Assembly (NCBI RefSeq): GCF_009296315.1
Contig: NZ_WHLY01000002.1
Location: forward strand, 6,360,501 to 6,424,500
Direction of reading: 5' to 3'
Origin: Salmonirosea aquatica
GTDB lineage: Bacteria > Bacteroidota > Bacteroidia > Cytophagales > Spirosomataceae
Length of the DNA stretch: 64,000 nucleotides
The translations under genes were made by a program, and so were the position numbers. The notes under the pieces were generated by a model. That model saw only the letters and a list, made by a program, of their open reading frames with translations, was not told the origin of the DNA and did not search any database. Shown here piece by piece: positions 6,237 to 57,257 of the stretch (position 1 is its first letter; each line of letters starts with the position of its first letter).

Positions 6237-8888
6237 ATGACTTCGCATCAGATACGGCAGGCTTTCCTGGATTTTTTCAAAAGCAAACAACACCTCATCG
6301 TTCCATCCGCTCCGCTCGTGGCCAAGAGCGACCCTACCCTCATGTTCAACAATTCGGGGATGGCCCAGTTTAAGGATTTTTTCCTCGGCAATGGTACCCC
6401 TCCCGCCCGCCGCATCGCCGACACGCAGAAGTGTCTGCGCGTGAGCGGCAAGCACAACGATCTGGAAGACGTGGGGTTCGATACCTACCACCACACCATG
6501 TTCGAGATGCTGGGCAACTGGTCGTTTGGGGATTATTTCAAGAAAGAAGCCATTCAGTGGGCATGGGAACTGCTGACGGAGGTGTATCAACTTCCCAAAG
6601 ACCGCCTCTACGTATCGGTGTTTGAAGGAGATCAAAAGGATGGGGTACCCTTCGATCAGGAAGCCTGGGACCTGTGGAAACCGATTGTGGGCGAGGAAAG
6701 GATCATTTTGGGAAACAAGAAAGATAACTTTTGGGAAATGGGCGATACGGGTCCGTGCGGCCCCTGCTCCGAAATACACGTGGACCTGCGTCCTGAGGCC
6801 GAAGTGGCGGAGGTTTCGGGCAAATCGCTGGTAAATAATGATCACCCGCAGGTCGTCGAGATCTGGAACCTGGTGTTCATGCAATTCGAGCGTAAGGCCG
6901 ATGGTTCGCTGGTACCCTTGCCCGCCACGCACGTGGATACCGGCATGGGCTTCGAGCGGTTGTGCATGGCGATTCAGCGCAAAACCTCCAACTACGACAC
7001 GGACGTTTTCCAACCCACCATTCAGGTACTGGAGGAGTTTTCCAATAAAAAATACGGAGCCGAGCGCATGCCCGACATCGCCATGCGCGTCATTGCCGAC
7101 CACCTGCGGGCCGTGGCTTTTGCCATCGCCGACGGGCAGCTACCCTCCAACGTGCGGGCGGGCTACGTCATCCGCCGGATTTTGCGCCGCGCTATTCGCT
7201 ATGGCTACTCCTACCTTAATCTCACCGAGCCCTTCATCAACCGCCTTGTACCTACCCTTTCGGCGCAGTTTGCCGATGTGTTCCCCGGTCTGAAAGATCA
7301 GGAGGAGTTTGTGACGAAGGTGATCCTGGAAGAAGAGCGCTCCTTTTTACGAACATTAGAATCTGGTCTGAAACGACTCGACGTTATCACCAGCCAATTG
7401 CAGGCGCAGGGTACCTCCACCATTCCCGGCGACGAAGTGTTTGAACTGAGCGATACCTTCGGCTTTCCGATGGACCTCACGGCGCTGATTGCCCGGGAAA
7501 AAGGTTTGGAAATCGACGAAGCCGGATTTCAGCAGGCGCTGGCCCAGCAAAAAGCCCGTTCACGCTCCGACGCCGCCCGCGAAGCCAGCGACTGGGTGGA
7601 GGTGCAGGACAATGAGGGGGTACCTGTAGAATTCATGGGCTACGATTTTCACGAAACCCACAGCCACATTGTCAAGTACCGCAAGGTCAAAACCAAGAGC
7701 AGCGAGGAGTACCATATCGTACTGGACCGCACGCCGTTCTACGCCGAAATGGGCGGACAGGTAGGTGATACGGGTTCGCTGGAACTTCGTGTGGACGGTC
7801 AGCCCTTTATCGTGACGATTGCCGATACCAAGAAAGAGAACGACCTTTTCGTGCACATTTCTCGCGATAAAAATCTGGATGAGGTACTCCAAACTACCGA
7901 TTCCGTCACGGCCCGGATCGACACCCAGCGCCGCCATAAGATCATGGCCAATCACACCGCCACGCACCTGATGCTGTCGGCCATGCGCAAGGTATTGGGC
8001 GGCCACGTGAGTCAGAAGGGCTCTTACCTCGACGACAATTTCCTCCGCTTCGACTTCGCCCATTTTTCCAAAGTGACCGATGAGGAACTGCACCAGATCG
8101 AGGAAATGGTGAACGAAAAAATCCGGGAGAACATCGCGCTCAATGTCCAGACCAACGTCCCGATTCAAGAGGCATTAGCGATGGGCGTAACGGCTACCTT
8201 CGGTGAAAAGTACGGCGATTTTGTGCGCGTAGTCGCCTTCGACCCTGCCTACTCGCTGGAATTGTGCGGGGGTACCCACATCCCGGCTACTGGTGAAATC
8301 GGTCTGTTCAAATTTACGTCCGAAGGCTCCGTTTCGGCGGGGGTACGTCGCGTGGAAGCTATTACCGGCGAAGCCGCGCTGGAACGCCTGCGCGAGCAGG
8401 AAGTGACGCTGGCCCAGATCAAAGATCTGCTGAAAGGCCCGAAAGATCTGGCCAAAGCCGTCGAAGCCCTGCTGGAAGAACGCACGGTTCTGCAGAAAAA
8501 GGTGGAGGCCCTGGAAAACGAAAAAGTACAGCAATTGAAAGGTACCCTGCTCATGAAAGTCAAAGCTTCGAACGGCAAAAACCTGCTGATCGAGCGCGTG
8601 GAGGTACCCAACGCCGATGCCCTGAAACAACTGGCCTACGAACTCAGGACGCAGGTAGACAATCTGGTGGCCGTTTTCGCCACCGAACTCAACGGCAAAC
8701 CCCAGTTGGCGGTCTATATTGCCGAAAATCTTGTGCAGGAAAATAACCTCAACGCCGGACAAATCGTGAAAGAACTCGCCAAAGAAATACGCGGCGGCGG
8801 CGGCGGTCAGCCTTTCTTCGCCACCGCGGGCGGCTCCGATGCCAGCGGGCTGGAAAAGGCATTGGCGAAGGCGGAAGGGATGTTTTAA
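6237..8888 (+). CDS. alaS: alanyl-tRNA synthetase
   Basis: An 883-residue class II synthetase that charges tRNA-Ala in the cytoplasm. The N-terminal catalytic core shows [26 protein letters not shown] and KHNDLEDVG, with [13 protein letters not shown] further on. The editing domain, which clears mischarged Ser/Gly-tRNA-Ala, keeps both zinc-binding pairs: His573 and His577 (HTATH) and Cys677-His681 (CGGTH). A coiled coil (about 735-775) and a C-terminal [14 protein letters not shown] segment complete the C-Ala region. Length and domain order are standard. The ATG at 6237 follows an AT-rich leader with repeated CAATTTTCAATT-type words. Confidence 0.98.
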
Positions 8889-8927
8889 CGAGAAACCATT
8901 TTTTTTATTACAAAAAACAGGAACTTC

Positions 8928-51012: not shown

Positions 51013-51933
51013 TTATCCCAAAAACTGGCTCACGTAATTGCGGCTTGTCAGGATCGCCGACTTCACATCGGTTATATTGGTTTCGTAGGCTTTATCCTCT
51101 ACCTCGATCACCACGGGCCCCCGGTAGCGCACGTCGGTGAGTGCGGCGAAGAAATCGCGCCATCGCACGTCGCCCAGTCCGGGCAGTTTGGGCGAATGAT
51201 ATTCCAATGGATTGGCCATGATGCCCACCTGATCCAGCTTATCCTTATACACTTTCACATCTTTCAGGTGAATGTGGTGCAGCCGCTCCCGGAACTGGTA
51301 GATAGGCTTGATCTCATCCATCATTTGCCAGATCATATGCGAGGGGTCGTAGTTCAATCCGAACGCCCGGCTAGGGATAATCTCAAACATCCGGTTCCAG
51401 ACCGCTGGGCTGATCGCCAGATTTTTACCGCCCGGCCATTCGTCGTTCGTAAAGAACATGGGGCAATTCTCAATGGCCAGCTTGATGTTATTATCCTCGG
51501 CTACCTTCACGATGCCCGGCCATACCTCGGCAAAGGTCTTGAGATTGTCAGTAATGTTTTTGGCCGGGTCACGGCCTACAAAGGTTGTTACTGTGGGTAC
51601 CCCAAGCTTGGCCGCTCCCCGGATCACTTCTTTGATATGCTCCACAAAATAACTCGCTTTTTTCGGTTCCGGATCAAGCGGATTGGGATAGTACCCCAGC
51701 GCCGAAATGCCCACATTGGCCGTGCGCAGCGTGTGCCGAATGTCCTTTACTTTTGAACCGTCGAGTTTCATTACGTCGATGTGCGATACTCCCGCGTAGC
51801 GCCGGGCGTCTGCATTATCCTTGGGCCAGCACATGACCTCCACACAACCGAAACCATGCTGAGCCGCGAAATCGACCATATGCTCGAAACTGAAATCGGC
51901 GAGTATAGCGCTGTTGAAACCTAGTTGAAACAT
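51013..51933 (-). CDS. sugar-phosphate isomerase/epimerase-like TIM barrel
   Basis: A 306-residue TIM-barrel protein of the xylose isomerase-like/IolE group. The ATG at 51933 (MFQLGFNSAILADFSFE) is chosen because homologues start there; the longer frame to 52008 adds a non-conserved leader. Metal-binding acids and histidines appear in LAIENCPMFFTNDEW, LNYDPSHMIWQ, HIHLKDVKVY and VVIEVEDKAYE. The family isomerises or epimerises sugars and inositols. Substrate unknown. It is divergent from the coiled-coil module. Confidence 0.85.
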   Translation of the reverse strand: MFQLGFNSAILADFSFEHMVDFAAQHGFGCVEVMCWPKDNADARRYAGVSHIDVMKLDGSKVKDIRHTLRTANVGISALGYYPNPLDPEPKKASYFVEHIKEVIRGAAKLGVPTVTTFVGRDPAKNITDNLKTFAEVWPGIVKVAEDNNIKLAIENCPMFFTNDEWPGGKNLAISPAVWNRMFEIIPSRAFGLNYDPSHMIWQMMDEIKPIYQFRERLHHIHLKDVKVYKDKLDQVGIMANPLEYHSPKLPGLGDVRWRDFFAALTDVRYRGPVVIEVEDKAYETNITDVKSAILTSRNYVSQFLG

Positions 51934-52165
51934 GCCGTTGAGAAGATTAGGTTGAAAAACCGTCCATTTTTTACAAGGGATCATCAGACCCCGCAACCGC
52001 TCATCCAAATCGGATATTGAAAAATCCTCGCAGGTTTAGTAATATTGACATACCAAAACAACGCTGGAGCAGGGAAAGACGGGGTAAATATACTCCCCTT
52101 CCTTTTGGAAGCAAAAGCGAACCGACTGGTTATTTACTTACCATTACGCCTAAACCACTACTAAA

Positions 52166-52846
52166 ATGCCTGAATCTGAAAAGAGTTTGGGAGATAAACT
52201 GCTGGGCTTTTTTATTAAGGATCCAGAAGGCAAATCCCCTACCCCTACCCCTTCCGAGCCAATTGCTCCGGCAGTCCCTCCGGCACAGACCCCGAATGTC
52301 GTCAATGCGGCGGGTACCGCCGAGGTAGACCGCAAGTTTGTGGAACATTTTGTCGAGCTACTCGAAAAAGCCAACCTACCTGGCCCCGACTACTTTGAAT
52401 TCAAACAAGCCCTGAAAAGCATGGAAGGATTGGGGTTGAGCGAAGAAAAACAGTACCAGGCCTCCTGGGCTAGCTTCAAGGCCATGGCTCAGGGTGTTCG
52501 GGATACTTCGATCCTGTCCACTTCCGCCAACCAGTATGTGGGTGTGCTGGATCGTGACCGGACCAGCTTTCTGAAAGATGTGGAAAAAGCGATCAGCGAC
52601 CGCGTAGGCAGCCTCAATCAGGAGCTCAACAAGTTGCAGGAGGACAATAAAACCTATGCCCGGCAGATCGTGGAGTTGCAGGAAAAAATCAACGCCAACA
52701 ACGGACGGCTGGAGAAGATCAATGGCGATATTCAGGAACAAAGCGCGAAAATCAACGCCAATCGCGATAGTTACGACATCACCTACCATAGCATGGTGGA
52801 GCAGATCAATTCTGATTTGGCAAAGATTAAGAAATATTTGAACTAG
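52166..52846 (+). CDS. soluble coiled-coil protein, first gene of envelope module
   Basis: A 226-residue protein with no signal peptide or membrane helix. A Pro/Thr-rich linker (about 22-50) is followed by a helical domain (about 50-130) and a long coiled coil (about 145-215; NQELNKLQEDNKTYARQIVE, LQEKINANNGRLEKINGDIQ). Not recognised as a named family. It is the first of four same-strand genes and likely a cytoplasmic partner of the membrane coiled-coil protein, inferred from layout only. The gap to the next gene is 124 bp. Confidence 0.6.
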   Translation: MPESEKSLGDKLLGFFIKDPEGKSPTPTPSEPIAPAVPPAQTPNVVNAAGTAEVDRKFVEHFVELLEKANLPGPDYFEFKQALKSMEGLGLSEEKQYQASWASFKAMAQGVRDTSILSTSANQYVGVLDRDRTSFLKDVEKAISDRVGSLNQELNKLQEDNKTYARQIVELQEKINANNGRLEKINGDIQEQSAKINANRDSYDITYHSMVEQINSDLAKIKKYLN

Positions 52847-52970
52847 ATTTTATGAGTGTATGAGTTGAAAGGTTTACGAGTCAGAAAAAGACTTTTATAC
52901 CCTAGCACTTGGACTCCTACACTCCCAATCCGCAAGAGCGGACCCTTTATACACTTTAAACTCCAAAACA

Positions 52971-53981
52971 ATGGCTGACTTTTCTCAAATAGGTGGTTCC
53001 GCAGAGGATACCAAAAAGTCGTACTGGTCGAAGCCAGAAGGTATTACGTCCATGCTCTTTCTGGGCGCGGCAGGTGCTTTGATTCTCTATTACTGGAATA
53101 TCATCGCGCTGTTTCTCATTGAAGTAACGCAGAACACCCTGTACCTGGGCATTCTGCTGGCGGCCCTGGCTGGGCTCATCTTCCTGTTTACCAGCCGCGA
53201 TGTACGTACGGCGGTGTTCTTTCTGTTCAAGACGCTCATGCGCAAAATCACGGGTACCATTGTCAAGCTGGACCCGATCGCGATTATGAAAATTTATATC
53301 AGCGACCTGAAAGACAAGCGCGAGAAAATGCAGGGGCAGATCAACACCCTGGCCGGACAACTTGTACGTCTCAATAAGAAAATCAATGAGAACAACGAGA
53401 TGATCAAGCAGAAGTTTGCTGAAGCCAACAAGGCCAGCGAACTCTCGCACAAGCCCGGGATGCGCGAAACCGCCCAACTGGCCACTATTGAAGGTGCGGG
53501 CCTGCAGGAGATGAACGAGAAACTTTTCCCGCTCCAACGCAACATGAAGACCATTCTGGAATTCATGGAAAAAGTGAACAAAAGCGCCGACTATATTATC
53601 AAGGAAACCGAAATCAAGGTCAAGTTGAAGGAGACGGAGTATAAGATCGTCAAGGAAAGTTCGAACGCCCTGCGCACGGCCATTAGTATTTTCAAAGGCA
53701 ACCCTGACAAGAAATTCTACTTCGACGAGTCGATGGAGTACATTCAGGATGACATGAGCCGCAAGCTGGGCGAAATGAAACGGGCGATGGATCTGTCGAT
53801 GGATTTCATCAACGGCGTGGACGTGCAGAACGGCATACTTTCCGACAAAGGACAAAAAATGCTCGAAGCCTACAATCAGGGGCAATTCACCCTGGTCAAC
53901 CTCGACGCCCCCGATCCCGTACCGGCTACTATCAACCTTAACCCTCCCAAAGACTCCAATTACCGGGGGCTTTTGGATTAA
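52971..53981 (+). CDS. membrane coiled-coil protein, PspA-like organisation
   Basis: A 336-residue protein with two membrane helices near the N-terminus (about 28-48 and 52-72) and a long helical part. DPIAIMKIYISDLKDKREKM followed by QINTLAGQLVRLNKKINENN recalls the DPxxMLxQxIRDME start of PspA/IM30, but without the rest of that signature. Further coiled coil lies at about 190-235. It would sit on the inner membrane with the helical body in the cytoplasm. Named family unknown; a membrane-stress or scaffolding role is inference. Confidence 0.6.
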   Translation: MADFSQIGGSAEDTKKSYWSKPEGITSMLFLGAAGALILYYWNIIALFLIEVTQNTLYLGILLAALAGLIFLFTSRDVRTAVFFLFKTLMRKITGTIVKLDPIAIMKIYISDLKDKREKMQGQINTLAGQLVRLNKKINENNEMIKQKFAEANKASELSHKPGMRETAQLATIEGAGLQEMNEKLFPLQRNMKTILEFMEKVNKSADYIIKETEIKVKLKETEYKIVKESSNALRTAISIFKGNPDKKFYFDESMEYIQDDMSRKLGEMKRAMDLSMDFINGVDVQNGILSDKGQKMLEAYNQGQFTLVNLDAPDPVPATINLNPPKDSNYRGLLD

Positions 53982-54078
53982 GAAAGGCTTAACGGGAAAC
54001 GGGCAATCTATAAAAAACTTTGTGTCTTTGCCCCTCTGTGCCTCCCTTTTAAATTTTTAACTCTCAATTTTCCATTAA

Positions 54079-55101
54079 ATGAAACGACTTACTGTAGCCG
54101 GGCGCCTGCTCATAACCGCCCTCATTCTTGCCGCTCTATACTTTGGATTCAAATATTTCGGGGGCCAGAAAGCTCTGGAATCCATGACCGATCGTACCCG
54201 TACCGAATCGGCGGAAGGTACCAGTGAATCGGAATACAAAACACCGGAACCCGGTTCCACGTCCAGCCCCGATAACGAAGCCTCCGATGTCGCAAGTTCT
54301 TCGTTTGATTACACGGCACCGGAGCCCGTCAATGGTACCCTCAAAGGGGTGGTAGAATTGGGTGCCAGCGGGTTCAACTCGTTCATCATCAAAGTGGATT
54401 CGCAAAAGCGCTGGAAACTGGAAAAAGCCGAGTTCGGCAACAGCCTCGTCACCGAAAACATGGCTACCGATGCCGATATCCGCATGGGTTTGAAAAAATA
54501 CATCGGCAGTATGCTCGACTTCGGCGTAAGCGGCAAGAATATCCATTTCGTAGTAAGTTCAGGCGCGGCGAAGGCTGATGTCACGCAGAAAATAACCAAA
54601 GCCCTGCGGGATTTGGGCTACCAGGTCAATCAGGTGACACCCGAGCAAGAGGGCCAGCTGGGCTTTAAATCGGCACTGCCCGAACTGTACGACCAGCGGG
54701 CTTTCGTAACCGATATTGGCTCGGGTAATACCAAAATTTCGTGGATGGAGAACAACCGCGTACGGGCCATCGAGACCTACGGGGCCAAGTACTATCAGGA
54801 CAACGTGGATGATTCAAAGGTTTACAATGAGGTACTTGCCAAAGCCAAGCAAGTCCCGACCGACCGGCGGAAGACTTGTTTCATCATCGGAGGGGTACCT
54901 TTCGAAATGGCTAAGGAAGTGCGCAAAGGAAAAGAGCGTTACACCGTCCTGAGCGCCCCTGACGCGTACAAACTCGAAAACGCCAAATCCAAGGCCGGCA
55001 TCAATATTTACAAAGCCATCGCCGACGCTACGGGTACCAACCAGTTCGTATTCGACTGGGACGCGAACTTTACCATCGGATTCCTGCTTTCGCTTCCGTG
55101 A
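54079..55101 (+). CDS. membrane-anchored Ppx/GppA-like protein
   Basis: A 340-residue protein with one N-terminal helix (about 10-27), a Ser/Thr/Pro-rich linker (32-80) and a Ppx/GppA-like actin-fold domain. The phosphate-1 motif is VELGASGFNSF (about 92-102), a SSGAAKADV segment matches the Ppx TSALRxA strand, PEQEGQLGF (188-196) sits where the catalytic Glu loop lies, and DIGSGNTKIS (212-221) is the phosphate-2 motif. The positive N-terminus suggests the domain is outside the cytoplasm, where ATP or GTP is scarce, so a binding or structural role is possible. Polyphosphate or (p)ppGpp hydrolysis is not shown. Confidence 0.65.
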   Translation: MKRLTVAGRLLITALILAALYFGFKYFGGQKALESMTDRTRTESAEGTSESEYKTPEPGSTSSPDNEASDVASSSFDYTAPEPVNGTLKGVVELGASGFNSFIIKVDSQKRWKLEKAEFGNSLVTENMATDADIRMGLKKYIGSMLDFGVSGKNIHFVVSSGAAKADVTQKITKALRDLGYQVNQVTPEQEGQLGFKSALPELYDQRAFVTDIGSGNTKISWMENNRVRAIETYGAKYYQDNVDDSKVYNEVLAKAKQVPTDRRKTCFIIGGVPFEMAKEVRKGKERYTVLSAPDAYKLENAKSKAGINIYKAIADATGTNQFVFDWDANFTIGFLLSLP

Positions 55102-55109
55102 TCAATTTA

Positions 55110-55145
55110 GAACGGGCGGTCCGCCGCGCGGCGGACCGCCCGTTC
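55110..55145. repeat. 36-bp perfect palindrome
   Basis: GAACGGGCGGTCCGCCGC and its exact reverse complement abut without a loop at 55110-55145, 8 bp after the Ppx-like stop and 12 bp before the next ATG. It is very GC-rich and has no U-tract. It could form a hairpin in mRNA or a cruciform in DNA. Confidence 0.85.
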
Positions 55146-55156
55146 CATCCTTCCTT

Positions 55157-55657
55157 ATGACCCTGAACGACGTTTTCAATTCCCTTGAACGGAATCCTCT
55201 GCCTATTCTGATGTATTTCGTGGCTTTGCCACTTCTGGCCTGGATCATGGGAGCAGCGGTTCAGGACAGGCAGGACATCAGTACGTGGAAGTACCTCTAT
55301 GCCGTGCTGGTGTATGCCGTCTGCATTCCGGGAATTTTCGCCATGACGCTCAACGTGTACCTTTTCCTTTTCGAGCGCCAGAGCATTTGGCAGGCCGACT
55401 TGCTCTTGCAATTTCTGCCCATCCTCTCGATGGTGTTGACTCTGATACTGATCAAGAGCAAAATTTCGTTCGACTTCATTCCTGGTTTTGGTAAAATAGC
55501 GGGCTTCCTCACGCTCATAACCGCGCTCATCGGCATTATGTGGTTTTTTGATCGTCTGCACCTCATTGCCTTCACGTATGTACCCTTTTCAGCTTTACTG
55601 ATCGGCTTTGTACTGGTACTGCTGCTCATCCGATTCGCCTGGAGCAAGCTGTTCTGA
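55157..55657 (+). CDS. five-helix membrane protein of envelope module
   Basis: A 166-residue integral membrane protein with about five helices (roughly 15-35, 48-70, 80-98, 110-130, 138-160), for example PILMYFVALPLLAWIMG and SALLIGFVLVLLLIRFAW. No family recognised. It is the last of the four-gene run, separated from the Ppx-like gene by the 36-bp palindrome. Such small multi-pass proteins often complete membrane complexes; no biochemical role is visible. Confidence 0.6.
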   Translation: MTLNDVFNSLERNPLPILMYFVALPLLAWIMGAAVQDRQDISTWKYLYAVLVYAVCIPGIFAMTLNVYLFLFERQSIWQADLLLQFLPILSMVLTLILIKSKISFDFIPGFGKIAGFLTLITALIGIMWFFDRLHLIAFTYVPFSALLIGFVLVLLLIRFAWSKLF

Positions 55658-55728: not shown

Positions 55729-57257
55729 TTGACCAGGAAAAATCTACTTCTTCTCGGCTTCATCATTCTAAAGATAGCCCTCCATTATTTCCTGATCAAT
55801 CCTGAGTACCAGCTCCACCGGGACGAGTACCTGCATCTCGACCAGGGGTACCATCTGGCCTGGGGTTACGTGTCGGTGCCCCCGGCTACCTCCTGGGTTT
55901 CCTACCTCATTTCAGTGCTCGGGGGGGAGTTTTCTGGGTTCATTTTTTTCCGGCGCTCTTTGGGGCACTGACGTTGCTGGTGGTATGGAAAACCATTGAA
56001 TTGTTGAATGGGAGCTTGTACGCGCTTGTTTTGGGAGCCGTTTGCGTTCTATTTTCGGTGCTGCTGCGGATTAATATGCTCTACCAGCCCAACACCCTCG
56101 ATGTTTTACTTTGGACTACCCTGTACTTCACCCTGGTCCATTATATCAAGTCCGAAAACCCGAAGTGGCTCTACGCAGCCGCGGTGTCCTTTGCCCTTGG
56201 TTTTTTGAACAAATACAACATAGCCTTTCTTGTTATGGGCTTTCTACCTGCCCTGCTCTTGACGCCCCATCGGAAGGTGCTTGCTAACAAACACGTATAT
56301 TTTTCGATGGGTCTGGCTTTGCTACTCATTTCACCCAACCTGGTCTGGCAATACACACACGATTTTCCCGTCGTTCAGCACATGAACGAGCTGGCTCGTA
56401 CGCAATTGGTCAATGTCCAGCGGTTGGATTTTTTGAAAGAGCAGCTGATTTTTTTCATCGGTTCTTTTTATGTAATCGTAGCGGCTTGGGTTTCATTTTT
56501 CACCTACCGCCCCTTTGCAACCTACCGGATTTTCTTCTGGGCCTACGTGTTCACATTAGGTACCTTTATTATCCTCAAAGCCAAGGGGTACTATGCCATC
56601 GGCCTGTACCCCATCCTCATCGCCTTTGGGGTGGTATACCTTGAATACCTGTTGCAAGCGGGCTGGCGCAGGTACCTTCGGCCCCTTGCCCTGTTCCTGC
56701 CTATTCTGGTTATCATTCGCTTATTCCCGGTCATTTTCCCCACGGCCAGTCCGGCCGAGATTCACCGCAATTCGGCACGCTACGAATCACTCGGACTGTT
56801 GCGCTGGGAAGATGGAAAAAACCACTACCTACCTCAGGATTTTGCCGATATGCTGGGTTGGAAAGAATTGGCCCACAAAGTAGATAGCGCCAGTGCGCTG
56901 GTGGAGGGTAAGGGACGTACCCTGATCCTTACCGATAACTACGGGCAGGCGGGAGCCATTAATTTTTATTCAAAAAACAAGAATCACCGCGCGGTTTCGC
57001 TCAACGCCGATTATATCGACTGGATTGACCTTTCCACAAAAATCGATCATCTGGTTCTGATTCAGGAAGCTTCTGATACCGATAAAGGCCGGGAGCGGGA
57101 AAAACCGTTTTTCGAGAAAATCCGTTATATCGGCAAAATTGAAGATCAGTTTGCCCGTGAAAAAGGTACCAGTATCTACCTGCTGGAAAACGCCCGGGTC
57201 GATATCAATAAAATCCTTCGCCAGGAAATTCGCGAACGGAAGCATGGGAATGACTGA
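55729..57257 (+). pseudogene. frameshifted GT39-type membrane glycosyltransferase
   Basis: Two frames encode one multi-helix GT39/ArnT-like transferase. The first begins at TTG 55729 (MTRKNLLLLGFIILKIALHY) and carries the family's acidic loop HRDEYLHLDQGYHLAWGY with PP. It breaks just after a seven-G run (55921-55927). One extra G would restore SVLGGVFWVHFFPALFGALT and join the second frame, from 55974 or earlier, to 57257. The rest has about eight more helices and a soluble C-terminal domain. The family transfers a sugar from a lipid-phosphate donor outside the inner membrane. The G-run could be assembly error or a phase-variable tract. Confidence 0.78.

Follow-up and report, generated by a model that had tools for sequence, protein, structure and literature searches.

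A putative membrane-anchored PspA-like scaffold and its likely periplasmic Ppx-fold partner in Salmonirosea aquatica

Proteins of the PspA/ESCRT-III superfamily are ancient membrane-repair polymers, and to our knowledge it is poorly known for most bacteria how they sense trouble outside the membrane. Here, we analysed a locus of four genes (g1 to g4) in a stretch of 64,000 nucleotides (nt) from Salmonirosea aquatica (phylum Bacteroidota, order Cytophagales, family Spirosomataceae; RefSeq assembly GCF_009296315.1, contig NZ_WHLY01000002.1, positions 6,360,501 to 6,424,500 of the forward strand), which as a whole is called the window below. In this locus the gene of a putative PspA-like protein with transmembrane (TM) helices (g2) stands between those of a coiled-coil protein (g1) and of a protein with the predicted fold of Ppx/GppA exopolyphosphatases (g3). 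The four same-strand genes reported by a first-pass annotation of the sequence were all confirmed as + strand open reading frames (ORFs) with exactly the following coordinates and with 0, 2, 1 and 5 TM helices, respectively; amino acids are abbreviated aa.

g1: 52166-52846, + strand, 226 aa, no TM helix, coiled coil (by ORF call and hydrophobicity)
g2: 52971-53981, + strand, 336 aa, TM helices at about residues 32-50 and 56-74, then a coiled coil with DPIAIMKIYISDL
g3: 54079-55101, + strand, 340 aa, one N-terminal TM helix, Ppx/GppA-like
Palindrome: 55110-55145, no strand, 36 nt, perfect, between g3 and g4
g4: 55157-55657, + strand, 166 aa, five TM helices, without a Pfam or NCBIfam match

The closest described systems are operons in which, according to a study by comparative genomics, TM-bearing PspA/Snf7 homologues are encoded together with an ABC ATPase, a permease and a PBPB-OmpA protein (Ravi et al. 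2024; PMC11237479), and the core of our finding is therefore of a known kind. The TM-bearing PspA/ESCRT-III-like protein is common to those operons and to the locus studied here, and ABC/OmpA partner genes were found at 14 of the 26 g2 loci (window included) of our order sample, which comprises 118 genomes of the order Cytophagales. For Bacteroidetes the same paper mentions a coiled-coil companion gene, as g1 is here. Unlike the operons described there, the window has no ABC/OmpA genes and holds a Ppx-fold protein instead; the paper also speaks of an AAA+ ATPase, and a scan of the window ORFs between 46000 and 62000 for one motif, Walker A, gave no match. The terms Ppx, GppA and polyphosphate have 0 occurrences in its main text. 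The view of the first-pass annotation that the locus matches no characterised system was thus half right: the ABC/OmpA type had been described, and what is likely new is the TM-anchored PspA-like scaffold with a Ppx-fold protein as its periplasmic partner. Neither the exported Ppx group nor its link to a PspA-like scaffold was found in the open-licence literature searched by titles and abstracts, where queries on exported or membrane-anchored exopolyphosphatases and on PspA with polyphosphate returned no paper on this module, which is weak evidence of novelty.

The PspA-like protein g2 and its partner g1

Most probably, g2 belongs to the PspA/ESCRT-III superfamily as a divergent, TM-anchored member; sequence or model supports two passages through the inner membrane and, following the second TM helix, a helical domain of PspA/ESCRT-III-like kind. 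With PspA/Vipp1 (IM30; PF04012) it has in common an N-terminal helix, the residues DP and a long helical hairpin in register. It differs in the integral two-TM anchor before the helix, which is kept among relatives and sets it apart from PspA as a peripheral protein without TM helices, and the window member lies below PF04012 detection. An hhalign comparison of g2 with six PspA proteins of Bacteroidota gave a Prob of 92.9 (E 3.8e-7, 88 columns, DP aligned to DP), and the coiled-coil controls gave 44.6 for g1-g2 and 24.6 for g1-PspA. All six comparators score above the PF04012 cut-off; since they had themselves been retrieved by the g2 profile, being those of its weak matches in the phylum that were inspected (a 923-residue frame of genome G471 is not among them), a Pfam scan, shuffles and Foldseek were added. 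PF04012 was matched by 9 of the 21 g2 members (E <=0.1, best 4.2e-8) and other families by at most 4 each, the g2 profile scored 41.8 bits on the six PspA (30 block-shuffled profiles, 4.1 or less; reversed profile, -2.6), and the top ten Foldseek matches of the g2 model were all Vipp1 (PspA family). The PspA-like start that had been read into g2 at first pass was thereby borne out. A PF04012 search of the own genome found no true PspA.

An identity of g2 as an XpaC- or TelA-like protein (toxic anion resistance), considered because such proteins have a similar two-TM coiled-coil layout, was discarded after Pfam and NCBIfam scans returned no such family. As a separate observation, loci L205, L206 and L208-L211 from other families of Bacteroidota hold a true PspA; the genes after it mostly encode a small helical protein and one of about 294-306 aa that has 1-2 TM helices, and this recurring set resembles three-gene Bacteroidetes neighbourhoods reported in PMC11237479.

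The near-constant partner of g2 is g1, which in an alignment of 27 relatives consists of a conserved N-terminus with SLGDKLLGFFI, a variable Pro-rich linker, a helical region with GPDYFEF and a C-terminal coiled coil. Its Pfam and NCBIfam matches, like those of the window g2, are far below cut-off and mostly to coiled-coil families. The g1 N-terminus looks amphipathic, and together with the C-terminal peptide of g2 (Y..L[LF] after a variable linker in 20 of the 21 aligned relatives) it looks like a docking element. An MIT-like domain of g1 that would bind this peptide stays a guess, since the 25 listed of 164 Pfam families for the 27 g1 proteins include no MIT and are mostly coiled coil.

Fold, active site and location of g3

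The g3 protein comprises an anchor (MKRLTVAGR...), a low-complexity linker and a Ppx/GppA-fold domain at about residues 85-340. Its first-pass assignment to Ppx/GppA is weak by sequence, with 24.6 and 25.1 bits to PF02541 (cut-off 27; two ordinary Ppx of the own genome reach 176.5 and 112.3 bits), and clear by predicted fold. The model (predicted local distance difference test score, pLDDT, 77; predicted template modelling score, pTM, 0.68) matches Ppx/GppA in Foldseek at E 1.3e-12, and VIA-align superposes its residues 85-340 on H. pylori PPX/GppA with Z 23.0, a root mean square deviation (rmsd) of 3.1 and 251 aligned residues. NTPDases, some of which are secreted, rank behind Ppx among the fold matches, with Z up to 17.6. 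A PDB search with the g3 profile found no match at E up to 0.01, and the window g3 alone matched Aquifex PPX at E 0.14; with hhalign, g3 gave a weak Prob of 36 versus three ordinary Ppx and 97.9 versus the exported set described below. Compared with the Ppx/GppA exopolyphosphatases (PF02541), g3 retains the fold over 251 residues, the catalytic Glu and the loop Asp; it differs in being membrane-anchored and probably exported and in two active-site residues, and its 340 aa leave no space for the C-terminal domains that long PPX have.

Conservation of the catalytic Glu, a point raised by the first-pass annotation, holds for the residue itself and fails for its partner in the second loop. All 38 aligned rows keep the catalytic E191 (E121 in E. 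coli, E114 in Deinococcus) and the loop Asp D212. At the final position of the second phosphate loop, DIGGGSTE, 95 of 96 g3-related proteins have Lys and all 38 ordinary Ppx have Glu. Of these 38, 31 were the top PF02541 matches from the own genome and 18 relatives, and so were picked as typical, and 7 came from the weak matches of the exported-set profile. In g3 the final loop residue is Lys219, at the position of the loop-2 Glu (E150 in E. coli, E143 in Deinococcus). Eight motifs of the DIGAQTTK kind and the motif of L157 were assigned by eye, and the sole case without Lys is L140, a g3 frame of Spirosoma telluris (8034-8891) that is broken before the second phosphate loop. A branch with 100/100 support separates the Glu rows from the Lys rows in a tree of 64 rows (every fourth g3 and every second ordinary Ppx row; unrooted, bootstrap unsettled). 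By alignment, the first-loop Asp (D7 of Deinococcus PPX) appears as Glu, E93, in g3. The activity of Deinococcus PPX is reported to fall when D7, E114, D136 or E143 is replaced by Ala (PMC11234463), and that of E. coli PPX to drop to a residual level on changes of E121, D143 or E150 (PMC5417653). Because of the Lys at the E143/E150 position and the Glu at that of D7, we expect catalysis by g3 to be lost or changed and anion binding to be retained; binding would be likelier than hydrolysis, as Lys replaces the water-binding Glu.

A hydrophobic N-terminus within 60 residues occurs in 96 of 96 unique g3-related proteins versus 4 of the 38 ordinary Ppx. Genomes G418 and G202, of another family (f26), encode two g3 homologues each, all four with lipobox-like N-terminal ends such as FFFSC (three of four by pattern, the fourth by eye). 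In a wider related set (L240-L242, L244 and L256-L273) the proteins begin with what resembles a signal sequence, and some contain TPR repeats. The profile of the exported set matched 47 of 395 Bacteroidota genomes, part of the matches being ordinary Ppx or g3. The g3 protein is a member of a Bacteroidota group of apparently exported Ppx-fold proteins with a Glu-to-Lys change that defines the group. The f26 pairs lie about 5.7 kb apart (L248, 5386-6342 and 11116-12024; L249, 5535-6476 and 11204-12166), with a gene between them that is MscS-like by eye and no g1 or g2 alongside.

The anchor of g3 was compared with that of a second kind of protein found downstream of g2 in other genomes, which has about 470-600 residues with one N-terminal TM helix, a solute-binding part and an OmpA domain (solute-binding protein with OmpA, SBP-OmpA). 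These proteins were called by Pfam scans at L058 (OmpA) and L076 (NMT1 and OmpA) and elsewhere by profiles built from five such proteins. Over the first 45 residues, 176 pairs of SBP-OmpA and g3 (11 and 16 anchors, leaving out L056 g3 and L063 SBP-OmpA, which overlapping ORFs had hidden) had a mean score of 44.2 and a maximum of 107. The controls, 61 further ORFs with a TM helix at the start, gave a mean of 21.7 and a maximum of 43 in 671 pairs with SBP-OmpA, and a mean of 22.5 and a maximum of 67 in 976 pairs with g3; the top SBP controls were the SBP-OmpA proteins of L069 and L076, which are of another solute-binding kind and were placed among the controls. The seven best matches of the window g3 anchor are all SBP-OmpA anchors, and L052 g3 aligns with L058 SBP-OmpA without gaps over 37 residues. 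OmpA and solute-binding domains act in the periplasm, and because the anchor is common to these proteins the g3 domain is assigned to the periplasm as well. From the shared anchor, the lipobox-like homologues and the signal-sequence-like starts of the wider set we infer that the Ppx-fold domain is extracytoplasmic, in agreement with the outward orientation proposed at first pass; the export of g3 and the gene identities are well supported. Through their common anchor, g3 and SBP-OmpA may share one docking partner in the membrane, for which the TM hairpin of g2 is the simplest candidate.

Gene order and exchangeable partners

In the order sample, g2 was found in 25 of the 118 genomes, g3 in 17 and g4 in 6. 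As many as 14 of the 17 g3-positive genomes hold g2, versus 25 of 118 overall (Fisher p 4e-9, uncorrected for kinship). The other three are G010, which has a divergent g2 that is adjoined by g4 in the place of g3, and G004 and G055, where the profile search found no g2 and g3 still adjoins a g1 homologue. A second scan used g2 as the query on genome contigs and covered the best 80 of at least 560 g2 loci, which biases it toward near relatives (the closest named match is Persicitalea jodogahamensis, at 92%). Here, g1 stands directly upstream of g2 at 77 of the 79 loci with room for it, g3 is next after g2 at 61 of 78, and g4 follows g3 at 40 of the 61 g3-bearing loci. The association of the four genes, which the first-pass annotation had proposed to check, exceeds chance; its four-gene module, taken as a fixed one, was not supported. 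The neighbour counts of both scans argue for g1-g2 as the core, g3 as a lineage-bound partner and g4 as an optional addition.

The 26 g2 loci of the order sample comprise 14 with SBP-OmpA and 11 with g3, 2 of these having both, and 3 with neither. An ABC permease accompanies SBP-OmpA at 13 of the 14 loci, and L068 stops at a contig end. At L058 and L059 (genomes G024 and G040, one genus), g1, g2, g3, SBP-OmpA, permease and ATPase stand in a single row. Neither partner is found next to g2 at L070-L072, and the same genomes carry g3 at L054-L056. Both variants were also seen in G060, with g1-g2-g3 at L051 and, at L073, another g2 accompanied by SBP-OmpA, permease and ATPase. No SBP-OmpA was found in the own genome, where all 16 matches lie inside the OmpA-side residues 443-593. 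Of 11 loci that represent other families of the class (L194-L204), 10 have neither partner and L203 has the ABC set, and the 80 loci of the second scan gave no match to the profiles of the solute-binding protein, permease or ATPase; the either-or pattern is therefore limited to the order sample and does not extend to all g1-g2 loci. Among 8 g3-type loci, Walker A was matched only at L047, L051 and L052, kilobases from g2, and among 13 ABC-type loci, beyond the ABC ATPase, at L059, L068 and L074, away from g2.

In the two genomes that have g3 without g2, the genes directly before g3-g1 resemble those of the TerY-phosphorylation triad (vWA, PP2C and kinase):

L060, 5097-10843, and L061, 2637-8254: a contiguous series of vWA, PP2C, protein kinase, g3 and g1, without g2; the two genomes share a genus

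The TerY triad has been discussed as part of stress-response machinery (PMC4978471), and this neighbourhood of g3-g1, seen in a single genus, is taken as a hint. No triad genes were found among the five flanking window proteins scanned, and elsewhere only L060 and L061 had them among the compared loci.

Within the window, the intergenic gaps g1-g2, g2-g3 and g3-g4 measure 124, 97 and 55 nt. Matches to promoters and terminators outnumbered those in shuffles, yet none fixes the operon limits. The palindrome between g3 and g4 has 18-nt arms, no loop and no T tail and is the longest fully complementary one of five listed; a search of the window with its 16-base core, allowing up to 2 mismatches, gave no second copy, and the palindrome is a possible attenuator or terminator hairpin. 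The gene 3' of g4 (55729-57257) is PMT_2 glycosyltransferase-like, with PF13231 on its second part, and consists of two ORFs in different frames with a junction near a seven-G run, which a sequencing error, a pseudogene or phase variation could each explain. Upstream of g1 lies a divergent TIM-barrel gene (AP_endonuc_2; 51013-52008), and many Dyadobacter loci have a same-strand ORF of similar length (306 aa) upstream of g1.

Competing readings and their meaning

We favour, at a probability of about 0.43, a two-compartment envelope-sensing unit in which a periplasmic sensor of a phosphate-rich ligand is wired to a PspA-like scaffold. With the shared anchor docked to the g2 hairpin, the periplasmic domain, which would be a solute-binding protein with its ABC importer in other genomes and the Ppx fold here, would report its ligand to the cytoplasmic g1-g2 assembly, and once signalled this assembly would stabilise or remodel the inner membrane. 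The ligand of g3 would most likely be phosphate-rich (polyphosphate, pyrophosphate or released nucleotide), and g4 may be an accessory membrane subunit.

Several observations weigh against such a unit. The window g2 is not matched by PF04012 at E up to 10 and is absent from the PF04012 matches of its genome, where it does not reach the cut-off; a PDB search with the g2 profile found no PspA at E up to 1, and returned coiled-coil and helical proteins only (best E 0.023). The g2 model is weak (pLDDT 66, pTM 0.42), its Foldseek E values are 4e-3 or higher, the rmsd of the ten Vipp1 matches is 17-42 A, and in VIA-align BAR domains (Z 11.6) tie with Vipp1 (10.5). On the g3 side the charge rule is uninformative (36 of 72), and gaps of 55-124 nt do not prove a single transcript. 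In the second scan, g3 is not beside g2 at 17 of 78 loci, which include Arcicella, a Flectobacillus, other Cytophagales and Saprospiraceae and whose genomes were not searched for g3 elsewhere, and profiles of the solute-binding protein, permease and ATPase match 0 of the 80 loci. Finally, g3 occurs without g2 in G004 and G055, and its lipoprotein forms occur without g1-g2 alongside.

Alternatively, g3 could be a working periplasmic phosphohydrolase that scavenges polyphosphate, pyrophosphate or nucleotides, like the secreted NTPDases, with g1-g2 only as its membrane holder. The invariant E191 and D212 and the rank of NTPDases in the fold search speak for this, but the loop-2 Glu, reported to be needed in E. 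coli and Deinococcus PPX (PMC5417653, PMC11234463), is the very residue that has become Lys in all but one of the 96 proteins, and we consider a hydrolase unlikely. We give little credence to the idea that g1-g2 is a PspA-like membrane maintenance unit with g3 and g4 merely as frequent neighbours outside any common complex. The 17 loci with neither an adjacent g3 nor an ABC set, the lack of both partners at 10 of the 11 loci L194-L204 and the g3 of G004 and G055 would all fit it, but the enrichment of g2 among g3 genomes, the anchor common to g3 and the other partner, and the g1 homologue still beside g3 in G004 and G055 argue otherwise. That the unit is what is left of an ABC-importer operon, or a variant of one, with g3 as the solute-binding component and g4 or a distant transporter as permease, is improbable: the complete rows of G024 and G040 and the common anchor suggest it, but the own genome gave no SBP-OmpA, none of the 80 second-scan loci matched the importer profiles, and g4 belongs to no family in Pfam or NCBIfam.

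An extension of the envelope-sensing reading, which we regard as doubtful, is that the exported Ppx-fold proteins of Bacteroidota are metal-independent receptors of phosphate or polyphosphate by virtue of the Glu-to-Lys change, and that in Cytophagales, on an anchor interchangeable with that of SBP-OmpA, they drive a TM member of the ESCRT-III/PspA superfamily from the periplasm, which would amount to a bacterial ESCRT-like machine fitted with an outside-in sensor of ligands. A version of PspA with its own TM anchor and a genetically linked, exchangeable periplasmic domain would offer a direct route to testing outside-in control. The exported Ppx group, with its clean active-site swap, points to an enzyme fold that has apparently been recruited for extracytoplasmic work, and it would caution against naming exopolyphosphatases from their fold alone.

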